Source: Syntrophothermus lipocalidus DSM 12680 (GTDB lineage Bacteria > Bacillota > Syntrophomonadia > Syntrophomonadales > Syntrophothermaceae). From it: a DNA stretch of 64,000 nt. Below are positions 66 through 14,756 of this stretch, piece after piece. A program made the translations under genes and the position numbers. Location of the stretch: NCBI RefSeq assembly GCF_000092405.1, contig NC_014220.1:1798001-1862000 (forward strand), in the 5' to 3' direction. Below the pieces are notes generated by a model. That model ran no database searches. It saw only the letters and a list, made by a program, of their open reading frames with translations, and was not told the origin of the DNA. Position 1 is the first letter of the stretch, and every line of letters starts with the position of its first letter.

Positions 66-440
66 ATGGGCGGCAAGATTCTGGTGGCTGATGATTCGGA
101 AATGATTCGCAACTTTCACTCTTATATATTGAAAAGCGCCGGCTTTGATGTGGTAACCGCGGTAGATGGAGCTGATGCCTTGGAAAAGGCATACGGCTCA
201 TCCGCCCCCTGGGCCGTGGTAATTACCGACATCAACATGCCCAACCTGGATGGCTATGCCCTCATCGAGCATTTGCGCGGGGAACCGGAATTCGAAGACA
301 TCCCCATCATCATCGTTTCTACTGAAGACGAGTTAAAAGATAAGCAAAGAGGGTTCGAGGCCGGTGCCAACGCCTATCTGGTAAAACCGACCGACCCGGC
401 AACCTTGATCGAAATGATCAAAATGCTGATTGGAGCTTGA
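66..440 (+). CDS. cheY: CheY-like single-domain response regulator
   Basis: This 124-residue receiver domain has no output domain. It should be phosphorylated by the CheA encoded next and carry the signal to its target (flagellar motor, pilus motor or other). The acidic pocket is D9-D10, the phosphoacceptor is D55 (ITDINMPNLDG), the switch residues are S85/T86 and the conserved lysine is K107 (VKP). AGGAGG lies 7 bases before the ATG. The stop overlaps the cheA start by 4 bases (TTGA), so the two are translationally coupled. A second CheY lies at 10649, so the cluster has two competing or serial phosphoacceptors. The family is certain; the output is unknown. Confidence 0.93.
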   Translation: MGGKILVADDSEMIRNFHSYILKSAGFDVVTAVDGADALEKAYGSSAPWAVVITDINMPNLDGYALIEHLRGEPEFEDIPIIIVSTEDELKDKQRGFEAGANAYLVKPTDPATLIEMIKMLIGA

Positions 441-3136
441 AGGAAAAGCGAGGCGAAAAGAGAGTGAGGCTGACCTTTGAGCCTGACGATATAGACATAC
501 TCCAAGGCATAGTGGAGGAATCGAGCGAGCATCTTAGAGGCATTGAAGAAGGTATTCTGAGGCTAGAGGCAGACTTTGATCCTGAAACCGTAGACTCTGT
601 CTTTCGGGCCCTGCATTCGGTTAAAGGAGTAGCCGGGCTACTCGATCTCACGCCAATTAAAGATTGCGCCCACTGTCTAGAATCGATGCTGACGGATATC
701 CGCAAAGGCCTCTACATTCCGGACTCAGAAATAACCGACCTGCTCTTACGGGGAGTCGATGTTCTGCACCTGCAGCTGGCAGAGGTTGTGGCCCAGTTGC
801 AGGAGTTACAGGCGGATCCACCTCAGGAGCCCTTCGCCCTTAATATTCCCGACGCCGGGGGTAAGGAGTTGGCAGCAACAGTTGAAGAGATCCGTCTCCG
901 GCTCACCGGACAGTCTCAGCCTGAGCCTGATGAGGAGGCGAGGCCGGAGCAAAGCCCCGATTTTTCGTATCTACTCGATCAAATGCTCCCCGACTTTATT
1001 GATGAAACGGTAGAACACCTCAGCTCTGTAGAACATTACTGCGTGGAACTGGAAAAACACCCACAGGATCCGCAAATACTCAACTCTATCATGCGCAGCT
1101 TCCACAGCATCAAAGGAGGAGCCGGGGTCATAGCCAGCATGCGTCCTGACCAAGGAGAGAATGACCCGGTCAAACTTATCCGAGCCCTAACCCATGCGGC
1201 CGAAACCGTACTTCAATCTTATCTTGGCCAAAACCAACCTCTCTCGGAATCTATAGTTGATCTGGTCCTACAGGCAGTCGACAAGGTATCTGCCTTGGTT
1301 AAAACGCTGGGCGAGGGCGGGGAGCCGGATCCTTCGACACGAGATATCATCCAGCGGATGGAAATGGCAGCCAGGTGCGTCTCGAGCAGACGGAACGAGA
1401 CTGAAGAAAGCATGTCTACTAGGCCCTTCCTGGCCTCTAACCAACTGGCCGCGTTTATCAACATAGCCAACCAAGCCCTGGAATCCATAAAAGGCCTGCT
1501 GGATACCGCCCGCGAAGGATACCCTGTAAGAACTAACCGTTTCAGGCAGTACTCGCGGGCCCTAAAAAACCTCCATTCGAGCGCTCGCTACCTCGGATTT
1601 AATGAGCTGGCTGAAGAAGCGGCGACCCAGGCTCAGTTTGTCCGGACAGTTACACCGGAACGAGACGTGCTTACAGGTTCGATGCTGGAAAGGCTTCGGG
1701 CAGGATTTGAACGCTTGCTCTACCTGCTAGAGACCAAGGTGGCTGAGGTCGAGCGTATCATAGAGGACGTGCCGCTGGAGTACGCCGACAAACGACTGGG
1801 CGAGATCCTGGTCGAATCGGGTCTAGCCTCCCCCTCAGAAGTGGCTATGGCCCTCTCTAAGCAAGCAGTAGCCCGGGAAAAACAGCGGGAAACAGCAGAA
1901 GAAACCAGACCAGTTGGGGAAATTGCCGGGCAGTCGGTTAGGGTCAGCCAGGAAAAGCTGGACCGGCTCATGAACATGATAGGCGAACTCCTGATCTCCA
2001 AGAACAACATCCTGCACCTAGCCCGGAAGGTAAGCATGGAGTACAATCTGCCAGCCTTGTCCCGAGAGGTCAAAGCGGCAGCCATGGAAGTAGCCAGGAT
2101 CTCCGACGAACTGCAGGACGCCATCATGTCGGCCCGGATGATTCCGCTGCGCGTGCTTTTTCAAAGGTACCCCCGTACTATCCGCGACATTTCTCGTAAA
2201 TCGGGAAAGCAGGTGGACCTGGTGATCACGGGAGAAGACACTGAACTCGACAAAACCGTAATCGAAGCTATCAACGACCCGCTGGTCCACATGCTGCGCA
2301 ACGCGGTAGACCACGGGATAGAGCCTCCGGAAGAGCGAAAAGCTCTGGGCAAGCATCCCCAGGGTACTATTTCGATTCGTGCTTACTATCAAGGAGGGTA
2401 TGTCGTTATCGAAATATCCGATGACGGTAGAGGCCTCGACCCTGAACGCATCAAGCAGAAAGCCGTTGAAAAAGGACTGGTTCACCCTGTCCATGCGCAG
2501 ACCATGAGCCCTGAGGACCTTTACCAGTTCATCTTTGCCCCGGGGTTTAGCACCGCTCAAGAGGTTACCGAACTGTCCGGACGGGGCGTGGGGATGGACG
2601 TGGTAAAAAACAACATAGAGCGGCTGGGCGGGTTTATATATGTGGACAGCCAGCCAAGCGCTGGTACTACTTTTACCCTGAAGATACCGCTTTCCATGTC
2701 GATAATCCAGGGGTTGATGGTCGAAGCATTAGGCCAACGGTTCATCATAGCCTTGGACGCTATAGTGGAGACGGTGAAACTGCCATTAGCGTTCATCAGG
2801 AGTTACAAACAAAAGCTGGTAGCGGATATTCGCGGTCAGATCATCCCCCTAATCAGATTAGGCCAAGTGCTGGGAATAGAATCACCTTCCGATAGAAACG
2901 GCGTAGACCAGTCAGAAGACGGAAGGGTACCGATTGTAGTTCTGGACATAGACCGGGTTCGGGTAGGATTGATCGTCGACCGTTTTCAAAACCAGCAAGA
3001 ATTCGTCATCAAATCTCTGAGCGAAGAACTAGCCGGTCTCAAGGTTTACAGCGGAGCTACTATTCTGGGAGACGGTAGCGTGGTTCTAATCCTGAACCCT
3101 GTTCAACTCCTGCAACTTCACCTGACCGGCAGCTAG
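437..3136 (+). CDS. cheA: CheA histidine kinase with several HPt domains
   Basis: An 899-residue chemotaxis kinase. It has two clear phosphotransfer (HPt) domains with H60 (ALHSVKGVAGLL) and H223 (SFHSIKGGAG). A third, weaker HPt-like helix bundle is at about 330-440 with H380 (LKNLHSSARYLGF). A short RLGEILVESGLASPSEV segment at 453-469 resembles linkers seen in other long CheA proteins. The dimerisation helices lie at about 500-570. The HATPase domain has an N box (HMLRNAVDHGIE, 618-629), G1 (DDGRGLD) and G2 (GRGVGMDVV). A CheW-like P5 domain is at about 755-890. The TTG start overlaps the cheY stop. A GTG at 464 with GAGG upstream is an alternative start. Multi-HPt CheA proteins are typical of pilus-type or alternative-function systems as much as flagellar ones. 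Confidence 0.95.
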   Translation: MKEKRGEKRVRLTFEPDDIDILQGIVEESSEHLRGIEEGILRLEADFDPETVDSVFRALHSVKGVAGLLDLTPIKDCAHCLESMLTDIRKGLYIPDSEITDLLLRGVDVLHLQLAEVVAQLQELQADPPQEPFALNIPDAGGKELAATVEEIRLRLTGQSQPEPDEEARPEQSPDFSYLLDQMLPDFIDETVEHLSSVEHYCVELEKHPQDPQILNSIMRSFHSIKGGAGVIASMRPDQGENDPVKLIRALTHAAETVLQSYLGQNQPLSESIVDLVLQAVDKVSALVKTLGEGGEPDPSTRDIIQRMEMAARCVSSRRNETEESMSTRPFLASNQLAAFINIANQALESIKGLLDTAREGYPVRTNRFRQYSRALKNLHSSARYLGFNELAEEAATQAQFVRTVTPERDVLTGSMLERLRAGFERLLYLLETKVAEVERIIEDVPLEYADKRLGEILVESGLASPSEVAMALSKQAVAREKQRETAEETRPVGEIAGQSVRVSQEKLDRLMNMIGELLISKNNILHLARKVSMEYNLPALSREVKAAAMEVARISDELQDAIMSARMIPLRVLFQRYPRTIRDISRKSGKQVDLVITGEDTELDKTVIEAINDPLVHMLRNAVDHGIEPPEERKALGKHPQGTISIRAYYQGGYVVIEISDDGRGLDPERIKQKAVEKGLVHPVHAQTMSPEDLYQFIFAPGFSTAQEVTELSGRGVGMDVVKNNIERLGGFIYVDSQPSAGTTFTLKIPLSMSIIQGLMVEALGQRFIIALDAIVETVKLPLAFIRSYKQKLVADIRGQIIPLIRLGQVLGIESPSDRNGVDQSEDGRVPIVVLDIDRVRVGLIVDRFQNQQEFVIKSLSEELAGLKVYSGATILGDGSVVLILNPVQLLQLHLTGS

Positions 3137-3147
3137 GGAGGAAAACC

Positions 3148-3939
3148 ATGGCGGTAACTATCGTTGTTGCCAACCGCAAAGGAGGCAGCGGAAAAACCAC
3201 GACCACTGTCAACCTGGCCGACGGCCTTGCCCGCAGAGGGAAAAAGGTACTGGTGGTGGATGCCGATTCTCAGGCCCAGGCTACGGTAAGCATTGGGATA
3301 CTGCCCCACCGGTTGACCATGACCCTGTACGAACTACTGCACCTTGCGGCCAGTCCCCGGGGGTTGGGCAAGGAGCAAATAAACGAAACAGTTATCAGAA
3401 ACCAGAAACTCTTCGACCTCATCCCTTCTAAGCCGGATCTCTCGGCAGTTGAAGTGGAACTGGCAAATCAGACCGGACGCGAGTCCCTTTTAAAGGATCT
3501 GCTTTTGGATGTCATGGAAGACTACCAGTTCATACTCATCGACCTCCCCCCATCGCTGGGATTTGTGGCAGTAAACGGCCTCGTCGCTGCGGATTGGCTG
3601 GTAATACCTACGGAACCTTCATTTCTCTCGATGGACGGTCTGGCTCAGATGATGGGTATCCTGTACCGGGTCAATGCCGAGCTCAACCCGGGGTTACGCC
3701 TGATGGGAGTTCTCCCCGTCAAGTGCGACCTTCGAACCAACCTGGCTCGGAGCGTACTGGCGGAAATAAAAAACAATTTTGGGGAAGAAATGCTGCTCCC
3801 CCCCATACGAAATGATATCCGGTTAGCTGAAGCCCCGAGTTTTGGCAAGACCATATTCGAATACTCCCCAGCATCGCGGGGAGCTCAGGATTACGAAAAC
3901 CTGGTGGAAACCATCCTTTCTAGAAGTGGTGAACAATAG
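3148..3939 (+). CDS. ParA/MinD-type ATPase in the chemosensory operon
   Basis: This 263-residue deviant Walker A ATPase has KGGSGKTTT with the signature lysine K11 and P-loop K16, D38 in VVDADSQAQ and D132 in LIDLPPS. It resembles Soj/ParA and the chemotaxis-array relatives ParC and PpfA. Such proteins form ATP dimers that bind DNA or poles and position cargo. GGAGG precedes the ATG, and the gene sits 11 bases after cheA and abuts the next gene. The position inside a che operon, away from the chromosome origin, argues for positioning of a chemosensory cluster rather than chromosome segregation. That role is inferred. Confidence 0.88.
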   Translation: MAVTIVVANRKGGSGKTTTTVNLADGLARRGKKVLVVDADSQAQATVSIGILPHRLTMTLYELLHLAASPRGLGKEQINETVIRNQKLFDLIPSKPDLSAVEVELANQTGRESLLKDLLLDVMEDYQFILIDLPPSLGFVAVNGLVAADWLVIPTEPSFLSMDGLAQMMGILYRVNAELNPGLRLMGVLPVKCDLRTNLARSVLAEIKNNFGEEMLLPPIRNDIRLAEAPSFGKTIFEYSPASRGAQDYENLVETILSRSGEQ

Positions 3940-4323
3940 ATGGCAGGGAAAAAGAAACTGGGAATGGGGCTGGACCTGCTGCTGTCCTCGGTCCAATCCT
4001 CAGTTAATCAACCCGGGGGGATTGTTGATTGGAACCGCATCCAAAGTGTTTTCGACCAGGCCCGGCGCGAAGATGAAGCTGGAAACGTGTTTGAAGCGTA
4101 CTATCTTTACCGTCTGGCCAGCGACCTGGTTCGCGAAAAAGGCCCCGCGATAACCCCGGAGGCCAAAAGCCTGGCCTCTCAGTCCCTGAATAACGCTGCC
4201 GTCATCCTGTATGAACACGGTTACACAGCCCAGGCCCGCCGCTTGCTGGAAAAAGCAGTTCAGGTCTGCCCTGACAACCTTACTGCGCGTGATAACCTTA
4301 ACTCGCTCTTGCAAGGAGGCTAG
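3940..4323 (+). CDS. Small TPR-like protein with ParB-like N-terminal peptide
   Basis: A 127-residue protein whose ATG directly follows the ParA-like stop codon. The first residues (MAGKKKLGMGLDLLLSS) resemble the start of ParB/Spo0J proteins (K-GLG-KG-(I/L)-ALL), the segment that stimulates ParA ATPase. The DNA-binding ParB domains are absent. The rest is helical, and the last 45 residues look like a tetratricopeptide repeat (NNAAVILYEHGYTAQARRLLEKAVQVCPDN). I infer an adaptor linking the ParA-like ATPase to a cargo, perhaps the soluble receptors or the Hsp70 encoded next. The family itself is not one I recognise. Confidence 0.75.
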   Translation: MAGKKKLGMGLDLLLSSVQSSVNQPGGIVDWNRIQSVFDQARREDEAGNVFEAYYLYRLASDLVREKGPAITPEAKSLASQSLNNAAVILYEHGYTAQARRLLEKAVQVCPDNLTARDNLNSLLQGG

Positions 4324-4327
4324 AACA

Positions 4328-5818
4328 GTGATTGTGGGCATAGATCTAGGCACCACCAACTCTCTGGTAGCCTATATCAACCGGGAAGGCAAGCCGGAAA
4401 TCATCGTCAATGAGCGTGGGAGCCGATTGACACCTTCGGCCGTGTACTTCAAAACAGACCAGGAGGTCCTAGTAGGGGAGCTGGCTCGTTCCCAGATGGT
4501 CTTGAAAGCCGACCGGACGGTATGCTACATCAAGCGTCACATGGGTTCCGACTACCGGGTAAACATATCCGGGCGGGAGTACACTCCTATCGAGATCTCA
4601 GCCCTGGTGTTACGAAAACTTCGGCAGTACGCCGAAAAATACCTGGGCCAGCCCGTTGAGGCAGCGGTAGTCACCGTACCCGCCTATTTCAACGACAACC
4701 AGCGCCAGGCCACCCTGCAGGCGGGAAGGCTGGCGGGATTAAAGATATTGAAGCTGTTGAACGAGCCCACGGCCGCGGCCTTGGCCTACGGCCTGCAGTC
4801 GGGGGAAAAGGAACACGTCCTGGTGCTCGATATAGGAGGTGGTACCTTCGATATCACCCTTATGGAAAACGACGGTGGCACCTGCCGGGTGGTGGCGGTC
4901 GGGGGATGCACTACCCTGGGGGGGATCGATTTCGACAACCGGCTGATAAGGCACATTCTCGAAACTTTTAAGCAAACTCATGGGATAGATCTCGCTGCCG
5001 ACAAAGTAGCCTGCCAACAGGTTCAAATACACGCGGAACGGGCTAAGGTTGACCTGTCAACCGTAAACGAGTGCTCGGTTCTGATACCTTACATCACCAT
5101 GGGAACTGAAGGCCCGGTTCATCTCAACCAGACCATCCGTAGGGAAGAATTTGAGCACCTGGCAGATGACCTCTGGAACGAGATCAGTTCTCTTATCCTG
5201 CAAACCCTGCAGAAAGCGGAGGTTGGTCCCGACTGGGTGGATGTAATAGTTATGGCTGGCGGGGCCTCGCGGATGCCCGGATTCGAGCGGGTGGTACGGG
5301 AATTGTTCGGGCAGGTAGAAATAAAAAGCGATATCAATCCCGACGAAGTAGTAGCACTCGGAGCCGCCATAGAAGCTGGAATCCTGGCTGGCCAGGTCGA
5401 ACATATCGAACTCTACGATGTAACTTCCCACACCTTGGGCATTGAAGATGATATGGGGGAATTTGTCCCCATTATTCCAGCTAATACCCTCTATCCGGTA
5501 ACCAGGTCGCGCCTGTTTACCACAGTCGAAGACGATCAGGAGGAGGTGATAATTCACATCCTGCAGCGGGACGAACTCCAGTCCGAGGCTTCAGCAGCCG
5601 TATCCCTGGGCAAGTTTCACCTGGCTGGCATCCAGCAGGCTCCAGCCGGGGTGCCGTGCATCGAGGTAACTTTCACCATTGACCGCAACGGAGTTCTCGA
5701 GGTTGCCGCTCGGGACACGGAAACAGGTACGGAAAACCAAGTACAGATCACTGACGTGGCGTTTTCCGGCGGACACCCGGGTGAAAACCGCCGCGGGACT
5801 TCGCTAACGGTTATATGA
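4328..5818 (+). CDS. Lidless Hsp70 (DnaK-like) protein
   Basis: The GTG start at 4328 follows AGGAGG and gives VIVGIDLGTTNSLVAYI, the normal Hsp70 beginning. An open frame extends further upstream but overlaps the previous gene. The nucleotide-binding domain is complete: the LGTTNS phosphate loop, VTVPAYFND, NEPTAAALAYG, VLDIGGGTFDITL and MAGGASRMP. A beta substrate-binding domain follows (to about 480), and the protein ends at 496 residues. The usual 100-residue helical lid and tail are missing, against about 610 residues for DnaK. No grpE or dnaJ is adjacent. Its place between the ParA-adaptor pair and a soluble receptor suggests a dedicated role in receptor-array assembly or sensing. That is inference. 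Confidence 0.9.
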   Translation: MIVGIDLGTTNSLVAYINREGKPEIIVNERGSRLTPSAVYFKTDQEVLVGELARSQMVLKADRTVCYIKRHMGSDYRVNISGREYTPIEISALVLRKLRQYAEKYLGQPVEAAVVTVPAYFNDNQRQATLQAGRLAGLKILKLLNEPTAAALAYGLQSGEKEHVLVLDIGGGTFDITLMENDGGTCRVVAVGGCTTLGGIDFDNRLIRHILETFKQTHGIDLAADKVACQQVQIHAERAKVDLSTVNECSVLIPYITMGTEGPVHLNQTIRREEFEHLADDLWNEISSLILQTLQKAEVGPDWVDVIVMAGGASRMPGFERVVRELFGQVEIKSDINPDEVVALGAAIEAGILAGQVEHIELYDVTSHTLGIEDDMGEFVPIIPANTLYPVTRSRLFTTVEDDQEEVIIHILQRDELQSEASAAVSLGKFHLAGIQQAPAGVPCIEVTFTIDRNGVLEVAARDTETGTENQVQITDVAFSGGHPGENRRGTSLTVI

Positions 5819-5904: not shown

Positions 5905-7842
5905 ATGGCTAGAAGATTGGAAACACCGCCCGGTGCCAAAACCGGATTGACCCTGAAGACCGACGAAGAAGATATATCCAAGAAGCGGGAACAGGCCCGC
6001 AGGATGGCTCAAGAAAAGGCCCGGGCCCGCACCCTGGCCAAGCAGCAGGCTATGGCCGAGAGAATCGCCACCGCTTCCGAACAACTCCTGGCAGGAGTAG
6101 AGGAGGCAACCGCATCAGCCCAGGAATTCGCCCGGATGATGACTGACTTAGCGGTACGCATGCAGCAAGTAGCGGAGATGTCTGAGTCCGTAAAACAGAC
6201 TGCTCAGGACGAAAGTAATGCGGCGCAGCAGGTCGTAGAGACTTTCGATATTCTCTATAAGATAACCCAGGAAGGTCTCGGCACCATGCGTGAGTCGGTG
6301 GCCGCCATGGAAAACATGCGCGCTCACCTGGTAGAAGCAGCAGAGAAAAACGCCCAGTCCGGCAAGCGCATTGCCGAGCTGGAAGAACAGTCCCGGCAGA
6401 TCGGAGACATCGTGCAGACTGTGGTCATGATCGCAGACCAGACCAACCTCCTGGCCTTGAACGCCGCTATTGAAGCAGCCCGCGCTGGAGAACACGGGCG
6501 TGGATTTGCGGTAGTAGCAGATGAAGTACGCAACCTGGCCGAGATTTCTGAAAGCGCAGCCCGGGATATCCGCGGAGTAGTGGAGGAAATTCGTAGTGGC
6601 GTGGATCAGGTAGTTAAAGATATAAACCAGGTAGTAGAAAGCTTCCAGGATATGCAACAGCGCACCGAGCATAATAACCAGGGGTTCCAGGGGGTAGCAC
6701 AGCGGTTTCAGCTCTACGGGGAAATACTGGCAAGGTTTTTGGATTTTTCAGGCCAGATGGACCGCACGGCCCAGGAAGTCCGTTCTGTCTGCGAATCCAT
6801 CGCCGCCAATACAGACCAGATCAGGGTAGGGTGTGAAGAGTCCACGAAAGCGGTGACCGAACAGAGCAAGGCACTGGCCGAGGTCAACCAGGCTACCCAC
6901 GAACTGGCGGAGATGGCGGATGAACTTAAGACATCTACGAACGTAAACAAATCAGCCGAGGAAGTGGCTGCCACTTCGGAACAGCTCTCCGCTAATATAG
7001 AAGAAATAAGCAGCTCCGCCAGTGAGATCGTGAGCTCTCTTAGCCAGATGACAAACGCCGCCAGCCTATCCGAAAAGGATGTCCAGAAGGTTGTAACCTT
7101 GGTACACACCAGCCAGGAACTCCTAGCCAAAATGAACGAGTGCATAACCCAGGCCAGTCAAACCTTAGGGGAATTGCAGCAGATATTAACCGACAGCCGT
7201 CAGGCAGCTCGTGCTGTGTGGAGGGACCTGCGCGAATGTATTGACTCGTATCAGGGAACCAACAGCTCCATTGAGACCCTCGAAGAAAAAATCCGGCGTA
7301 TTGAAAAGATTGTGGATACCATCGAAAACGTTTCTATCCAGACCAACATGCTGGCTGTCAACGGGTTCGTAGAGGCCGCAACTGCAGGCGAGCACGGTCG
7401 TGGATTCTCCGTAGTTGCCGGTGATATCCGTAACCTCGCCACCGAGTCGGCAGAAAATGCCGATAAGATCAAGGACCTGGTAAGGGACCTGCAGAAGCAG
7501 ATGAGCAAAGTTATCGCTGACCTGGGTCAGTCCGAAAGCGTATCCCGGCAAGCAGACGAAGCTATAGGGGTAGCTGCCAAGAAAAATGACGAAGTCGAAG
7601 AATCACTGGCCCAGATTACGCACCAGCGCGCCCAGGTAGGTAAAGCCGTAACTGATATCCGCAACGCGGTTGAGAAAGCCGAAAAACTGGTTGAGGCTTT
7701 GACCGAGATGATAACCGCAGGGTTTGCTGAAATACAAGCCGCTTCTCGCACGGCTGACGAGCAGGCCCGAGGGGTGGCAGAGCTTGCCAACTCCATTGAA
7801 GAAATAGCGTCTATCGCTGATGAGCTACAGGCAGGTCAATAA
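5905..7842 (+). CDS. Soluble chemoreceptor with two signalling hairpins
   Basis: A 645-residue methyl-accepting chemotaxis-type protein with no membrane segment. The N-terminus is charged and helical ([21 protein letters not shown]). A standard receptor tip lies around Q179 ([20 protein letters not shown], then [16 protein letters not shown]). A second, divergent tip lies around Q479 ([20 protein letters not shown], then [20 protein letters not shown]). Ordinary receptors have one tip, which binds CheA and CheW. The rest is predicted coiled coil, and no ligand-binding domain is recognisable. GAGGAGGGAG precedes the ATG. A close paralogue lies at 12798-14756. Confidence 0.92.
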
Positions 7843-7884: not shown

Positions 7885-9441
7885 GTGACCGACCAACAGG
7901 CAAACGCCTTAGTTCAGGATGAGATGCAGTTGGTCACCTTCGATCTCGAGCGGGAAAGCTTCGGAATCAATATTATGAACGTGCAGGAGATCATCCGCAC
8001 GCCCAACATAACGGTTATTCCGCAGGCCCCGCCCTATGTAGAAGGGGTAACTAACCTGCGGGGCAATATCCTTCCGGTTATCGACACCCGGGTTAAGTTC
8101 AACCTGCCTCCTCGCGAACGCGACGCCGCCAGCCGGGTAATAGTAGTAGATGTGAAAGGCAGGAAAATCGGGTTGAGCGTTGACGGAGTATCCGAGGTCC
8201 TCCGGGTTGAGAGTAACCAAATAGAGCCGGCCCCCGCCATGGTATCGGGTATCGAGACCAGTGCTATCTCTGGAATGGTCAAGATTAACGATGGAAAAAA
8301 ACTGGTCATGATCCTGGATGCCGTGCGCTTCTGTCAACTGGAAAGCGGCGAGGGACAGGATACCGCTGCCGCCCGGTTAACCAGGAGCGAAGCCGGTTTC
8401 AAGCAGGAGCAGGACAAGAAGCTGGAAGAAGTCCAGTTAGTTACTTTTGGGCTAGGAAAAGAAGAGTTTGCCCTTGAAATAGAACAGGTTCGGGAGATCA
8501 TCCGCTACCCGGAGATCGTGAAGGTCCCTAACGTTCCGGCCTACATCAAAGGAGTGATCTCCTTGCGCGACCGCCTGTTGCCTATCGTCGACATGCGGGT
8601 TAAGCTCGAAACCAGCAGTGATGAAGTTAGCGACACTACCAGGGTGGTAGTCGTCGATGTGGACAACATGCAGGTCGGATTAGTCGTGGACAAGGTCTAC
8701 GAAGTTACCCGCGTCCCCAAAGACACTATCTACCCGCCGCCTCAAGCCTTGACCACCGAGGGGCGGGAGCAGTTGAAGGGCATAGTCAGGCTAGATGACG
8801 GGAAGCGCATCATCATGCTCATTGATCCTTTCGACATCCTGACCAGGGAGGAAATCCGCGGGATATCCACCGTAGAAACGGCCGATGCAGAATCCATCGA
8901 AGAAGCCCCGGCTTTTCTAGACGGGATGGACGAAGAACAGATGGTAGTGTTCAAGCTGGCAGGCGAGCAGTACGGGGTACGCATCACCCAGGTACAGGAG
9001 ATCAACCGTCTGTCTAAGATCACTAAAGTGCCGCGGGCACCCAAATTCGTCGAAGGGGTCGTAAACCTGAGAGGAGATGTCATCCCGCTCATCGACCTGC
9101 GCAAGCGGTTTGAGATGGAGGAAAAAGAGTACAACGAGTTCACCCGCATCATAGTCAGCGATATAAACAACAAAAAGATAGGAATCATCGTGGACGAGGT
9201 CCTTGAGGTTTTGCGGGTACCCAAAAAGAACCTGGAAGAGGCTCCCGACATCATTCAAGGGAACCAGGCAGCCCGCTTTATGGAAGGCTTGGCCAACCTG
9301 GAGAACAGGATGATTATGCTTTTGAACCTGGAAAACATCCTGGTAGAGAAAGAGTGGCAGAAGCTGGCCGACCTCAGCCAGTCCCAGGCGGCGAAAAAGA
9401 CGACCCCAGTGAAACTCAAGAAGCAGGGTGGAAACGAGTAA
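7885..9441 (+). CDS. cheW: Triple-domain CheW scaffold protein
   Basis: This 518-residue protein consists of three CheW domains in series, at about 9-155, 180-325 and 350-500. Each has the hallmark pattern of a beta strand (QLVTFDL, QLVTFGL, MVVFKLA), a QEI/REI helix, and an xxGVxNLRGxxLPxID core. CheW couples receptor tips to CheA; three copies on one chain could bridge several receptor or kinase units. The GTG start follows AGGGGGG. The gene overlaps cheB by 14 bases. Ordinary single-domain CheW is encoded separately at 58703-59182. Confidence 0.92.
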   Translation: MTDQQANALVQDEMQLVTFDLERESFGINIMNVQEIIRTPNITVIPQAPPYVEGVTNLRGNILPVIDTRVKFNLPPRERDAASRVIVVDVKGRKIGLSVDGVSEVLRVESNQIEPAPAMVSGIETSAISGMVKINDGKKLVMILDAVRFCQLESGEGQDTAAARLTRSEAGFKQEQDKKLEEVQLVTFGLGKEEFALEIEQVREIIRYPEIVKVPNVPAYIKGVISLRDRLLPIVDMRVKLETSSDEVSDTTRVVVVDVDNMQVGLVVDKVYEVTRVPKDTIYPPPQALTTEGREQLKGIVRLDDGKRIIMLIDPFDILTREEIRGISTVETADAESIEEAPAFLDGMDEEQMVVFKLAGEQYGVRITQVQEINRLSKITKVPRAPKFVEGVVNLRGDVIPLIDLRKRFEMEEKEYNEFTRIIVSDINNKKIGIIVDEVLEVLRVPKKNLEEAPDIIQGNQAARFMEGLANLENRMIMLLNLENILVEKEWQKLADLSQSQAAKKTTPVKLKKQGGNE

Positions 9442-10501
9442 CGTGGTACGTGTACTGATTGTCGACGATTCGGCCCTTATGCGCAAAACTCTCCGGCAAA
9501 TCCTGGAACGGGATCCGGAGGTTGAAGTCGTGGCTGCAGCCCGGGACGGAGAGGATGCCGTAGCCAAAGCCCGGGAGTACCGCCCGGATGTTGTCACTAT
9601 GGACGTAAACATGCCCAAACAGGACGGCATCACTGCCCTTCAGTATATAGTCAATGAAGACATCTGCCCTGTCATAATGGTTTCTTCCCTCACCCAAGAA
9701 GGAGCAGTGACCACGTTTGAAGCCTTGGAACTGGGTGCGTTTGATTTCGTGGCTAAGCCGGGCGGTACTGTGTCATCCAACCTCGAAACAGTGGCCGATG
9801 AGCTAGTTACCAAGATTAAAGCAGCCGCCGGGTTGAAAAAGAGAAAGATCACCGCCCGCCTGTCAAGGGCCCGTCGCTCCCGTGGCAGGCAGGTTGTGAA
9901 GAAAACGGGAGATACTGCAAGCGGGGACATGAAGGCAGTGGCCATGGGTATATCGACCGGGGGCCCCAAGATGATTTATGAGGTCTTGCCCTCATTACCG
10001 GCCAACCTCAACGCGGCTGTGTTCCTGGTCCAGCACATGCCGCCTAACTTCACTTCGGCTTACGTCAAAAGGCTGAACGAACACTGCCAGTTGGAGGTGG
10101 TGGAAGCCGAGGCTGGCATGAAGGTACGGCCAGGTGTGGTTTATGTGGGACGAGGAGGACGGCATCTCAGCCTGGTGAAAAATTCGCTGGGAGAAGCGGT
10201 CATCCGGCTGCCATCCCAGCCACCTCACCATTTTATGCCTTCAGTGGGAGTCATGATGGAGGCAGTGTTGAAGGTTTTCGGGCCGAGGACCATAGGAGTG
10301 CTCATGACCGGTATGGGTGACGACGGGGCTGACGCTATGGTCAAAATCAGGCAGGGCGGAGGCCTGACTATCGCCGAATCGGAAGAGAGTGCCATCGTGT
10401 TCGGAATGCCTGGAGAGGCCATCAAGCGCGGCGGAGCCGAAATCGTGGTCCCCATATGGGACATAGCGGCTGAAATCGTGAAAGCGGTAGGAGTAGTTTA
10501 A
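9428..10501 (+). CDS. cheB: CheB protein-glutamate methylesterase
   Basis: A 357-residue two-domain enzyme that removes methyl groups from receptor glutamates and deamidates glutamines. The receiver domain has DD at 13-14 and phosphoacceptor D59. A basic linker (about 138-160) joins it to the esterase domain, which has catalytic S176 (GISTGGP), H203 (VQHMPP) and D299 (TGMGDDGAD). The GTG at 9428 overlaps the CheW stop. A GTG at 9443 would give a more typical CheB start (VVRVLIVDDS). No cheR methyltransferase gene is visible in the window, so its partner must lie elsewhere or upstream. Confidence 0.94.
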   Translation: METSNVVRVLIVDDSALMRKTLRQILERDPEVEVVAAARDGEDAVAKAREYRPDVVTMDVNMPKQDGITALQYIVNEDICPVIMVSSLTQEGAVTTFEALELGAFDFVAKPGGTVSSNLETVADELVTKIKAAAGLKKRKITARLSRARRSRGRQVVKKTGDTASGDMKAVAMGISTGGPKMIYEVLPSLPANLNAAVFLVQHMPPNFTSAYVKRLNEHCQLEVVEAEAGMKVRPGVVYVGRGGRHLSLVKNSLGEAVIRLPSQPPHHFMPSVGVMMEAVLKVFGPRTIGVLMTGMGDDGADAMVKIRQGGGLTIAESEESAIVFGMPGEAIKRGGAEIVVPIWDIAAEIVKAVGVV

Positions 10502-10503
10502 CA

Positions 10504-10627
10504 AGCCACAGATGCACACAGACCCGGCACTCAGCCAACCTAGCTTTCAACATGACATCCCGTCACAACAACGCTATACACTAGTCAGGGCTTGAGCTGA
10601 GTGCCGGGTCTGTGTCCATCTGTGGCT
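10504..10627. repeat. Long imperfect inverted repeat between cheB and cheY2
   Basis: Two 32-base arms (10504-10535 and 10596-10627) are inverted copies with a single mismatch, separated by a 60-base spacer. The outer part contains CCACAGATGCACACAGA, related to the CCACAGAT-type repeats at 26722 and around 40120-40196. It may be a small non-autonomous element or a dispersed structural repeat. It sits inside the operon, and transcription must pass through it. Confidence 0.8.
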
Positions 10628-10648
10628 GGCTCGAAGGTAGGAAGGAAG

Positions 10649-11050
10649 GTGGTTCTTACGAGAGGGATAAAACCGGACGGGAGTCCGATTAAGGTAATGG
10701 CAGTGGACGATTCGCCGGTAACCAGGAAGATGCTCAAAAAAGCGCTCGAGCCCGAAGGGTTCATTATTGTTGCCGAGGCTGGTAACGGGCGCGATGCCGT
10801 GGCCGCCTACGCCCAGGCCAACCCGGATGTCATCACCATGGACGTTACCATGCCCATAATGGACGGGCTAGAAGCCGCAGCCGCCATCAAGAAACTCAAC
10901 CCTTCCCAAAAAATAATAATGCTGAGCGCCATGGGCGATAAAGATATCGTGGCTGAAGCCCAGAGCCTGGGTATTACTGATTTCTGTACCAAGCCTTTTA
11001 AACCCGACGAAATTATCGGCAAGATTCTGAAAGTTTTAGCGGAAGGTTGA
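10649..11050 (+). CDS. cheY: CheY-like response regulator
   Basis: A 133-residue single receiver domain. The acidic pair is D20-D21 (AVDDSP), the phosphoacceptor is D65 (VITMDVTMP) and the conserved lysine lies in TKPFKP. I chose the GTG at 10649, preceded by GGTAGGAAGG. The open frame runs further upstream, but that part is encoded by the arm of an inverted repeat and is not typical of the family. Two CheX phosphatase genes follow, so this is the probable CheX substrate. The order cheB-cheY-cheX-cheX keeps phosphorylation and dephosphorylation functions together. Confidence 0.9.
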   Translation: MVLTRGIKPDGSPIKVMAVDDSPVTRKMLKKALEPEGFIIVAEAGNGRDAVAAYAQANPDVITMDVTMPIMDGLEAAAAIKKLNPSQKIIMLSAMGDKDIVAEAQSLGITDFCTKPFKPDEIIGKILKVLAEG

Positions 11051-11059
11051 GGTGATGAG

Positions 11060-11539
11060 GTGAGCTCCACAACCTACATCGTGCCCTTTATCAAAGCCGT
11101 GGCCAGTGTTTTCAAGGATATGTTGGGAATTGTCGTAACAAAAGGAGAACCAGTTGACGAAGGAGAAGAGTTTGGGTCACAAGGGTTTGCGGTGATCGTC
11201 GGCTTTACTGGCGGCTGGCGCGGCCGCTTTTTCCTGGACATGCCGCCCACAGCAGCGTTGAGATTGGCCAGTATCCTGACGGGCGAGGAATACGCCTCTC
11301 CAACCGAAGAAGAAGTCCTCCTGTCCGCTGCAGAGATAGGCAACGTGGTGTGCGGCAACGCCGTCACCGCCGTTAACGACGCTTACCCAGGCCTGAACAT
11401 CCGGTTGACCCCTCCCAGCGTCTTCGTGGGAGACGGCTTTAGCATGTTCAACGTCAGACTCAGCTCCTACTCCGTTTTGATGCAAACCGAAGCAGGGCCC
11501 ATCAAGATAAACGTAGCGGTAGAGGAGGGGAAAAGGTAG
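11060..11539 (+). CDS. cheX: CheX-type CheY-P phosphatase
   Basis: A 159-residue protein of the CheC/CheX/FliY phosphatase family. CheX proteins dephosphorylate CheY with a single E-x2-N active-site motif, seen here as EIGN in LLSAAEIGNVVCGNAV, followed by the family's proline (LTPPSVFVG). The fold signatures VIVGFTGGWRGRFFLDMP and INVAVEE match CheX. The GTG start sits 9 bases after the cheY2 stop, preceded by GAGGTGATGAG. The next gene is a paralogue, perhaps forming a homo- or heterodimer with it. Confidence 0.85.
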   Translation: MSSTTYIVPFIKAVASVFKDMLGIVVTKGEPVDEGEEFGSQGFAVIVGFTGGWRGRFFLDMPPTAALRLASILTGEEYASPTEEEVLLSAAEIGNVVCGNAVTAVNDAYPGLNIRLTPPSVFVGDGFSMFNVRLSSYSVLMQTEAGPIKINVAVEEGKR

Positions 11540-11540
11540 G

Positions 11541-12002
11541 ATGGATGTGAGGTATATCAACCCCTTCATTCAGGGACTCCTCGATGTCGTAGCCATGCTG
11601 GGAATGACGAGCATTGTCCGTACTGGATTAGGCAAGAAGACATACCTTCAAACTGAAAATGAGGTCAACATCATCATCGGGCTCACAGGAGAGGTTAAGG
11701 GAAATATCGTGTTCTCTATGCCGGAAGCCACCGCCAAGAACATTGCCTCAGCCATGATGGCGGGAGTCCCGGTGGAAAAGCTCGATCTCATATCAAAAAG
11801 CGCCCTGTGCGAACTGGCCAATATGATAGCAGGTAACTCCGCGGCCAAGCTGGAAGGGCTGGGCGTAAAATTCAATGTCACGCCCCCCACCTTGATTACC
11901 GGCAAGAACCTGCTCGCCCTTATCAGCCAGGTAGAAACCCTGGTCATCAATTTTGCGGGCAACGAAGGGCCCTTAGAGATGAACGTGGCCTTAGAAATGT
12001 GA
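11541..12002 (+). CDS. cheX: CheX-type CheY-P phosphatase (second copy)
   Basis: This 153-residue paralogue of the preceding gene starts one base after that gene's stop, with AGGAGGGG upstream. The E-x2-N motif is ELAN in ALCELANMIAGNSAAKLE, and the later segment NVTPPTLITGKN matches the CheX proline region. Two tandem cheX genes suggest either a heterodimer or separate specificity for the two CheY proteins of the cluster. This is the last gene of the operon, and a terminator follows. Confidence 0.85.
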   Translation: MDVRYINPFIQGLLDVVAMLGMTSIVRTGLGKKTYLQTENEVNIIIGLTGEVKGNIVFSMPEATAKNIASAMMAGVPVEKLDLISKSALCELANMIAGNSAAKLEGLGVKFNVTPPTLITGKNLLALISQVETLVINFAGNEGPLEMNVALEM

Positions 12003-12797: not shown

Positions 12798-14756
12798 ATG
12801 CGGAAACAGTTGGAAAAGCCACCGGGTTTGGACCCCGAGCCAACCTCTAGCAAAACCGGAATAGCTCTTAAACAAGATGAGACAGCGGAATTAGCCCGCA
12901 AGCGAGAGCAGGCTCGCAAAATGGCTCAGGAAAAGGCCAAGGCCCGTACCCTGGCCAAGCAGCAGGCCATGGCCGAACGCATTGCCGCATCATCACAGCA
13001 GCTTCTGGCCGCAGTTGAGGAAACCAACGCATCGGTCCAAGAGTTCGCGCGCCTTATGACCGAAGTGGCCTCTATGGGAAACGATGTCGGCCAAAACGCC
13101 GAGCAGATGCGAACCGGGGCTACCAGAGTCAATCAGGTTGTAGAAGAGTTCCACAAGAACTTACAGGTCCTCCACCAGTACGCTTTGAGCGGAGTGGAAG
13201 CAGCCGAGCGGTCGCGTAGAGGCATGGAGACCATGATGGACCAGATGAAGGAAGCCGTTGCCAAAAACCAGCAGTCGGGCCAGCGCATAAAAGAACTGGA
13301 AATTCAGTCTGAAAAAATCGGCGACATCGTGCAGGCGGTAGTGATGATTGCGGATCAGACTAACCTGTTGGCTCTGAACGCCGCTATTGAGGCTGCCCGG
13401 GCCGGTGAGCACGGGCGAGGGTTTGCGGTGGTAGCCGATGAAGTGAGAAACCTGGCTGAGATATCAGAAAGATCGGCCCGGGATATCCGGGGAGTAGTTG
13501 AAGAAATACGGTCAGTGGTTGAAGAAATAGTTAAGGACATAGGCGAGGTTGTAAACAACTTTGAACGTCTCCAGGACGAACTTGCCAACACCAACCAGGG
13601 CTTTGCCCAGGTAGGTCAGCTTTTCGCCCAGTATGCAAGCAAGATTGACGAAGCGGTTGCCGGAGGGGTAACGATGACCGGCAAAGCAGGCGAGCTACTG
13701 ACCTCGGGTGAGGGTATAGCCAGCGCCGCCCTTCAGATAGCCGGGGCGACGCAGGAGGCGGCTAAAGCTGTAGCCGAACAGACCAAAGCCTTGTCCGAAG
13801 TAACCGCCGCGACCCATGATCTGACCGACATGGCCGAGGAACTAAGGACCTCCACCAACATCAACAAATCGGCCGAAGAGATAGCGGCTACGGCCGAGCA
13901 GCTTTCTGCCAACATAGAGGAAATCAGTTCCTCGGCTACCCAAATAGCATCAGGCTTGAACGAGCTGACCCAAAGTGCTCGTATCGCGGTAGCAGAAGCC
14001 CGCAAGGCGCAGGATATCGGGCAAGACAGCCAGCAACTGGTAGAAACCATTGCCGAAATAAGTTCTGCTGCCGGGAACATCCACGCCGAGATAGCAGAGA
14101 CTCTAGAAGCCAGCCGGGCCAGTGCCCGGAAGGTATGGGCCGGGATCAGAGAAGGTATCGCCTCTTACAGCGCCACTAACTCCGCCGTAGCCTCTCTGCA
14201 AGACAAGATCCGCCGCATCGAGAAAATCGTCGATACCATCGAAAACGTTTCCATTCAGACCAACATGCTGGCCGTAAACGGGTTCGTAGAAGCCGCTACG
14301 GCCGGCGAGCACGGTCGGGGCTTTTCCGTGGTCGCGAACGACATCCGCAACCTGGCTACAGAGTCTGCCGAAAATGCGGATAAAATAAAGGACCTGGTGC
14401 GGGACATCCAGATTCAGATCGGCAAAGTTGTCGGCGACATCAGCCAGTCTGAAGCAGCTTGCCGCAAGGCCGATGAAACCGCCGGCATGGCGGCCAAGTC
14501 CAACCAGCAGGCCACCGATCAGGTAAACCAGATCGGTCAACTTCGAGTTCTCGTGGGCAAGAGCATATCGGAACTCGGAACAGTCGTGGCGCAAGGAACT
14601 GAAATTGCGACAGCCGCCGCCGACATTCTGGCTGCCGCTTTCAGTAAGGTAGAAGAAGCATCAGTCATCGCCCAGGAACAGGCCAAAGCTGTTCAAGAAC
14701 TTGCCAACTCCATCGAAGATATCGCTTCCATCGCCGATGAGATGCAGATGAATTAA
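12798..14756 (+). CDS. Second soluble chemoreceptor with two signalling hairpins
   Basis: This 652-residue paralogue of the receptor at 5905 has no membrane span. The N-terminus carries the same [20 protein letters not shown] helix. The first receptor tip is standard ([20 protein letters not shown]). The second is the same unusual variant ([20 protein letters not shown]). The ATG at 12798 follows GAGGAGGGGAAG. An upstream ATG in the same frame (12705) lacks a ribosome site and adds a cysteine-rich stretch with no counterpart in the paralogue. The 286 bases before the gene are AT-rich and should hold its promoter, but I see no convincing -35/-10 pair. Confidence 0.92.

Follow-up and report, generated by a model that had tools for sequence, protein, structure and literature searches.

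The window analysed here, a stretch of 64,000 nucleotides from the Syntrophothermus lipocalidus DSM 12680 genome, carries a chemosensory cluster in the order cheR, cheY, cheA, parA, a TPR-like gene, hsp70, dosM-1, cheW3, cheB, a second cheY, two cheX-like genes and dosM-2 (Table 1). The cheR gene lies at the left window edge (genome positions 1797443-1798030), preceded by a frame that by eye resembles HEAT repeats, and the interval 9428-12002 of the window holds cheB, the second cheY and the two cheX-like genes. For hsp70 the true start probably lies downstream of the start of the open frame, because the Pfam match begins only at residue 41; the start of dosM-2 is placed at 12798 rather than 12705, a choice backed by the conserved N-terminus.

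Table 1. Features of the chemosensory cluster, in window coordinates
Feature	Position	Strand	Basis
CheY-like response regulator	66..440	+	Pfam
cheA (Hpt, dimerisation, ATPase, CheW-like domain)	437..3136	+	Pfam
ParA-like ATPase	3148..3939	+	Pfam
Small TPR-like protein	3940..4323	+	Weak TPR match, below Pfam cut-off
Hsp70 (DnaK-like) open frame	4211..5818	+	Pfam match from residue 41
dosM-1, soluble double-tip chemoreceptor, 645 aa	5905..7842	+	Pfam; HMM match to 108-member family
Tip 1 of dosM-1 (residues 179-205), canonical MCP hairpin	6439..6519	+	Translation; Tsr numbering from PDB alignment
Predicted midpoint helix break of dosM-1 (residues 344-346), equidistant from both tips	6934..6942	+	AlphaFold2, alignment, hydrophobic phase
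Tip 2 of dosM-1 (residues 479-505), variant hairpin NGF/EAAT	7339..7419	+	Translation, family alignment
cheW3, three concatenated CheW domains	7885..9441	+	Pfam
NLRG motif, CheW3 domain 1 (Arg aligned to R62 of E. coli CheW)	8053..8064	+	
SLRD, variant motif of CheW3 domain 2 (CheW3 residues 226-229)	8560..8571	+	
NLRG motif, CheW3 domain 3	9064..9075	+	
cheB methylesterase with receiver domain	9428..10501	+	Pfam
CheX-like phosphatase	11060..11539	+	Pfam
dosM-2, second double-tip chemoreceptor, 652 aa	12798..14756	+	Pfam, tip motifs
Tip 1 of dosM-2	13356..13436	+	Translation
Tip 2 of dosM-2 (variant)	14256..14336	+	Translation

The two dosM genes encode soluble receptors, and in translation each has a canonical tip followed exactly 300 residues further on by a variant one, which bears out the earlier note, where a standard tip and, roughly 300 residues later, a variant had been read in both. 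Pfam places two stretches of MCPsignal (PF00015) in each receptor; no second Pfam family that might provide a sensory domain rose above the cut-off in either, and the AlphaFold2 models are all-helical. The closest named relatives belong to the Syntrophomonadaceae. A third copy of dosM lies outside the window, at about 610.9-612.9 kb of the same 2,405,559-base genome (locus L204, 7395-9434), with the same variant tip (NGF...EAAT) and a tip spacing of 301. Within about 7 kb on each side of it, no frame of at least 110 amino acids matched the che proteins of the window, and as judged from these surroundings the third copy is an orphan. In its tip 2 the conserved Gly390 is replaced by Ala (EAATAAEHG).

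From the Pfam architecture, the neighbouring cheR, cheY, cheA, cheB and cheX genes and the definition in the literature, the window receptors are identified as DosM, the double-signalling-domain receptor of the F9 chemosensory class, encoded beside CheW3. The signature of that class is a receptor with two tandem signalling domains together with a concatenated triple CheW, the pair being DosM and CheW3 (PMC9321776). Both window receptors have the two tandem MCP signalling domains, the triple CheW adjoins the receptor, as it does in 42 of the 46 named loci of relatives, and cheA, cheY, cheB and cheR are all in the cluster. DosM of Vibrio cholerae (VC1403), like F9 DosM generally, is described as the same kind of soluble chain, with two tandem signalling domains, usually without a sensor domain and likewise encoded with a triple-domain CheW, and it is reported to be the scaffold of a two-layer cytoplasmic array (PMC9321776, PMC7534058); the likeness drawn here is to that description. 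According to a review and a tomography paper, the V. cholerae protein is an extended rod with a signalling domain at either end, and its array has two CheA/CheW layers 35 nm apart (PMC7534058, PMC3964821). Neither the double tip nor its link with two layers is new, then, and the window genes are members of that kind; the proposal in the earlier note that a chain with two tips could span two kinase layers matches what reviews say of V. cholerae DosM (PMC7534058). Two things set the present genes apart from known DosM: tip 2 of the Syntrophomonadaceae copies has Phe383 and Thr388 in addition, and this genome has two cluster copies plus the orphan, with genes for ParA, a TPR-like protein and Hsp70 in the cluster.

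The sample of the family draws on the 46 named loci, of which many are truncated, on searches of genomes from several phyla, on fetched stretches and on 10 of 22 plasmid records. In all, 189 rows matched the family HMM. Removing duplicates left 120, and 560 or more of the 644 columns were filled in 108 of them; only these 108, taken as full-length, are counted below. The full-length DosM from the 10 plasmid records enter the counts and the covariation and are absent from the alignments used for folding. The genome searches scored only small numbers of candidates in each genome (3 to 9 for the phylum samples), so additional copies may be undercounted. Among the titles of the DosM records are Syntrophomonas, Acetobacterium, Heliobacterium, Thermodesulfobacterium, Thermodesulfovibrio and Bryobacterales, and also Aerophobetes, Thermovirga, Azospirillum, Methylosinus and Sphaerotilus. 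In Syntrophomonas wolfei subsp. methylbutyratica (L033, 9956-11921) and one other genome (L119), dosM is split into two frames.

With residues numbered as in E. coli Tsr, by alignment to PDB chains, the two tips differ consistently across the family. Position 382 is Ala in all 108 copies of tip 1 and Gly in all 108 copies of tip 2, and position 402, which is Glu in 104 and Thr in 4 of the first tips, is Asp in every second tip. At position 373 an Asp (107, with 1 Glu) in tip 1 stands against Ile (86), Val (17), Thr (4) or Met (1) in tip 2, and at position 380 an invariant Leu (108) stands against Val (98), Leu (6), Ile (3) or Arg (1). Two further positions vary within tip 2: 381 is Asn in 61, Ser in 37 and Thr in 10, and 388 is Arg in 85, Thr in 20 and Gly in 3. 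Tip 1 is invariant over 376-390 save for one alignment gap at 378. Tip 2 departs from the canonical combination N381, A382, R388 and E402, of which we take Arg388 and Asn381 to be trimer contacts, and it retains E385, A387, G393, G395, F396 and V399 (108 of 108 each), G390 (107) and R404 (100). According to a simulation paper, E402 makes a trimer-stabilising salt bridge with R404 (PMC6746300).

These counts revise one claim of the earlier note and uphold another. Substitution of NGF and AAT for the usual NAA and AAR was the change that the note had picked out, and as a definition of the variant it was rejected: Phe383 and Thr388 occur in only 20 of the 108 proteins, always together, and on the sequences sampled are a refinement of the Syntrophomonadaceae, the family-wide changes being Gly382, Val380, Ile/Val373 and Asp402. 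The accompanying claim, that the variant tip is under selection and has not decayed, holds for the signature in this wider form, which is conserved in 108 of 108. When the tip-2 signature was searched alone as DNA, 41 matches were found in 34 of the 398 genomes of the phylum (30 checked as loci, 11 by coordinates); 40 fell in double-tip receptors, far more than chance would give, and one, by eye, in a dxs-like frame. Among the 26 distinct frames in the sample with a single tip match, 8 carry Gly382, and all 8, when the list was read by eye, were DosM that are truncated, split between frames or only half recognised. The difference between the tips, which runs through the whole family, adds to what is known of DosM.

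The geometry of the chain is fixed. The tips are 300 residues apart in 101 of 108 proteins and 301 in the other 7, so that in the 101 the midpoint lies 150 residues from each; the C-terminal arm is 150 residues long in 84 and 149-154 in the others, and no insertion or deletion was seen in alignment columns 257-434 among the 108 sequences. The midpoint mostly reads S-T-[DN], with Ser344 and Thr345 in 88 of 108 each and Asp or Asn at 346 in 89. AlphaFold2, run with alignments of 26 and 81 sequences, breaks the helix at 344-346 both times (mean pLDDT 89.2 and 89.7; pTM 0.62 and 0.65). Moreover, the hydrophobic face turns by about 90 degrees across the midpoint, as against a median of 11 and a 90th percentile of 30 within the arms, a phase shift that favours a genuine interruption over a single straight helix; the calculation also contradicts a reading by eye in which the heptad ran on across the midpoint. 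The DosM chain consists of four helical arms of about 150 residues each, running N-arm, tip 1, arm, break, arm, tip 2, C-arm.

That the second segment folds as a receptor hairpin, a supposition on which the earlier note depended, is also what the models predict. The hairpin of the soluble chemoreceptor of Thermotoga maritima (PDB 3g67/3g6b), which is likewise a soluble receptor hairpin but has a single hairpin and a single tip per chain, matches residues 388-599 of the first model (hairpin B) over 212 residues with an rmsd of 3.0, and hairpin A of the second model with an rmsd of 2.3. A designed single-chain bundle aligns with the second model between residues 53 and 636 (194 residues, rmsd 1.8). 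The match ranges, from which the geometry was judged, imply that both models place the two hairpins side by side; single-chain input favours such self-folding and cannot show a dimer. The VIA-align lists contain many unrelated long helical bundles, among them TTYH and ClyA-type proteins, and these say only that the model is a compact bundle; a search of viral structures returned long-helix noise only.

As to length, the helix rise is 0.148 nm per residue, and an extended DosM chain could span about 44 nm; the cytoplasmic fragments of E. coli receptors amount to about 2 x 130 residues end to end. Layers of such E. coli fragments lie 31 nm apart, those of V. cholerae 35 nm (PMC3964821). By proportion, the 300-residue spacing fits the observed sandwich, but this is no more than a consistency check, and it fits an extended and a folded chain alike.

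The adjoining CheW3 has an asymmetry of its own. Matches were obtained in 156 frames (duplicates included), and the 77 distinct proteins with exactly three motif matches were counted. Domain 1 has NLRG in 76 of 77 and domain 3 has N[LIM]RG in all 77, while domain 2 keeps the Asn in 10 and the Gly in 15. The Arg of domain 2 is present in 77 of 77, a figure partly set by the search pattern, which admits only R/K/H at that position; proteins whose middle domain fails the pattern were left out, and the deviation of domain 2 is therefore probably understated. The role of the corresponding Arg62 of E. coli CheW is described in PMC3828127. The protein is that of the F9 class, the same three CheW domains next to dosM, and it is the domain-2 asymmetry that is measured here. 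Since the triple CheW is present in 42 of the 46 loci and its own middle domain is variant, it is a good candidate for the partner of tip 2; that domain 2 would be the one that reads tip 2 is put forward as a hypothesis.

Whether the two hairpins of DosM pack against each other was approached through covariation in the 108 sequences, for which the effective number (Neff) is about 61. Averaged mutual information has maxima at the registers expected inside hairpin A (position sum about 390) and inside hairpin B (about 990); at the cross register (about 690), which sets hairpin A against hairpin B, it peaks just as strongly. Within 4 residues of register, the entropy-matched mean z of the cross arms is 0.285 for the N-arm paired with the C-arm and 0.300 for the pair of inner arms, compared with 0.276 and 0.247 for the within-hairpin controls by the same measure; the diagonal pairings of same positions are lower, at 0.184 and 0.249. 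Simulation of 60 alignments along the tree, with site rates and composition matched, gave cross-arm maxima of 0.085 and 0.095. Random subsampling, repeated 60 times, put the best shift of the cross arms no more than 4 residues from register in 60 and 51 cases; the corresponding counts were 55 and 54 for the controls and 58 and 58 for the diagonals. When cross-hairpin pairs are ranked by mutual information, the top 100 include 13 that are no further than 4 residues from the antiparallel register, where 3.2 are expected. The cross signal survives entropy matching, reweighting and regression on heptad phase; under the coarsest sequence weighting the best shifts move by 2-3 residues.

Gene conversion between the halves was considered as the cause and rejected, because the two halves of one chain are no more alike (identity 0.313) than halves compared across near relatives (0.318). 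Swapping hairpin B for that of near relatives lowers the cross signal to 0.212 and 0.192, but one of the controls also drops, to 0.160. Selection by distance from the tip, acting without contact, may be an alternative source of the cross covariation. A second method supports the coupling in part only. In reduced-alphabet mean-field DCA, which is too weak to name individual contacts, one cross pair reaches a z of 4.4 at register, equal to its control, with a maximum of 4.7 at a shift of +14; the other is weak (2.3, with control B at 1.9), and the top-ranking single cross pairs show no enrichment on register (3 of 100 against 3.2 expected). Leaving out the NGF/T clade (88 sequences remaining) gave cross z values of 3.5 and 1.2 with controls of 3.0 and 1.7, and leaving out the SGA/TGA clade (73 remaining) gave 4.1 and 2.0 with controls of 4.0 and 2.6; on the SGA/TGA clade alone (35 sequences) nothing clear was found in either controls or cross pairs.

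Since the covariation across the hairpins is about as strong as that within them and lies beyond the phylogenetic null, we infer that the tip-1 hairpin probably, by a modest balance of the evidence, packs against the tip-2 hairpin in one bundle, formed either by antiparallel chains or by one chain. The bundle would be the receptor four-helix bundle, and every receptor end would offer the baseplate one canonical and one variant tip. The version we prefer, as a tentative choice made because it fits the reported rods that span two layers, is an antiparallel dimer that always matches a canonical tip from one chain with a variant tip from the other. Two extended chains would then form a rod of about 44 nm with identical mixed tips at both ends, and such a rod would hold two CheA/CheW layers to each other, in keeping with the account that reviews give of V. 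cholerae DosM. Within a trimer of receptor dimers, each dimer has one subunit at the axis and a peripheral one that is able to meet CheA/CheW (PMC4692393). With mixed tips, the inner, trimer-forming role and the outer role of binding kinase and CheW could be split between the two tip types, and the partner suited to them could be CheW3, in which a single domain is variant.

What the earlier note implied was that tip 1 lies at one end and tip 2 at the other, as in a parallel homodimer of extended chains in which each tip meets its own kind and whose two baseplates would be chemically different. The description of V. cholerae in a review can be counted in favour of such a dimer, the tips are distinguishable and so would allow two different layers, and the DCA backing for cross-hairpin contact is partial. 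Set against this, in a parallel dimer of the ordinary MCP kind the two hairpins of one chain would have no contact, and no cross-hairpin covariation is predicted away from the midpoint; yet by mutual information the cross signal matches the one within hairpins and is positive in all three bins of height, although it is weak near the tips, and weakest there. The covariation thus disfavours the parallel arrangement, which we regard as possible but doubtful.

The covariation fits equally well a chain that folds at its midpoint into a four-helix bundle of about 22 nm with both tips at the same end. This cis pseudo-dimer would be a natural single-chain receptor dimer, and the two layers would then be joined base to base. 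It agrees with the helix break that AlphaFold2 places at 344-346, with match ranges that imply a compact bundle and with the broken hydrophobic phase. A precedent exists in the engineered single-chain Tsr dimers, which can function in E. coli and likewise hold two receptor signalling domains in one chain, but are artificial, membrane-bound and built from two Tsr subunits (PMC4692393). The would-be turn, however, is mostly S-T-[DN], without Gly or Pro and without length variation in 108 sequences, and folding in cis does not by itself explain the two-layer bridging reported for V. cholerae DosM. We consider this arrangement unlikely.

The earlier note had also suggested that tip 2 might bind some other partner, such as the Hsp70 or the ParA adaptor. 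Tip 2 would in that case be off the CheA/CheW interface and would bind Hsp70, ParA or the TPR protein, whose genes lie beside dosM in the window; Thr388, moreover, replaces an arginine kept in 85 of 108 second tips. But among the named loci (many truncated) Hsp70 is found in 14 of 46 and ParA in 17 of 46, and since no full-length DosM in the sample lacks the variant tip, both are poor candidates and were rejected as general partners of tip 2. Tip 2 also keeps E385, A387, G390, G393, G395, F396, V399 and R404, as a tip facing CheA/CheW would. Binding to such a partner is accordingly very improbable. That tip 2 is a degenerate duplicate kept for length only, as its departure from consensus at several otherwise conserved positions might suggest, is hardly credible for a hairpin that has its own signature in 108 of 108 proteins and in three paralogues of this genome.

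Should the antiparallel dimer with its mixed tips be correct, receptor arrays would have evolved a genetically encoded asymmetric receptor unit. In normal receptor dimers identical subunits play two parts, which are for that reason hard to separate by mutation; if a canonical tip meets a variant one in the DosM bundle, the two parts have already been separated by nature, and positions 373, 380, 382, 383, 388 and 402 would point to contacts that are dispensable on one side. Such a pairing would answer, too, the question of how the scaffold is constructed in the two-layer array of the F9 class, which is poorly understood, and it predicts layers that are chemically the same. In the literature searched, which did not extend to the main DosM paper, no description was found of the tip-2 signature, of the CheW3 domain-2 signature or of mixed-tip pairing, and the novelty of the pairing idea is not secure. 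A 2022 survey, whose analysis yielded no variation mediating F-class hybrids, addresses a separate question (PMC9321776).

A last observation concerns the genes for ParA, the small TPR-like protein and Hsp70, which are embedded in the F9 cluster of the window (3148-5818). Hsp70 is also encoded near dosM in two Deltaproteobacteria MAGs (loci L037 and L043), and ParA is found near dosM in several other phyla and on a Methylosinus plasmid; the links of Hsp70 and ParA to dosM may extend beyond this family.
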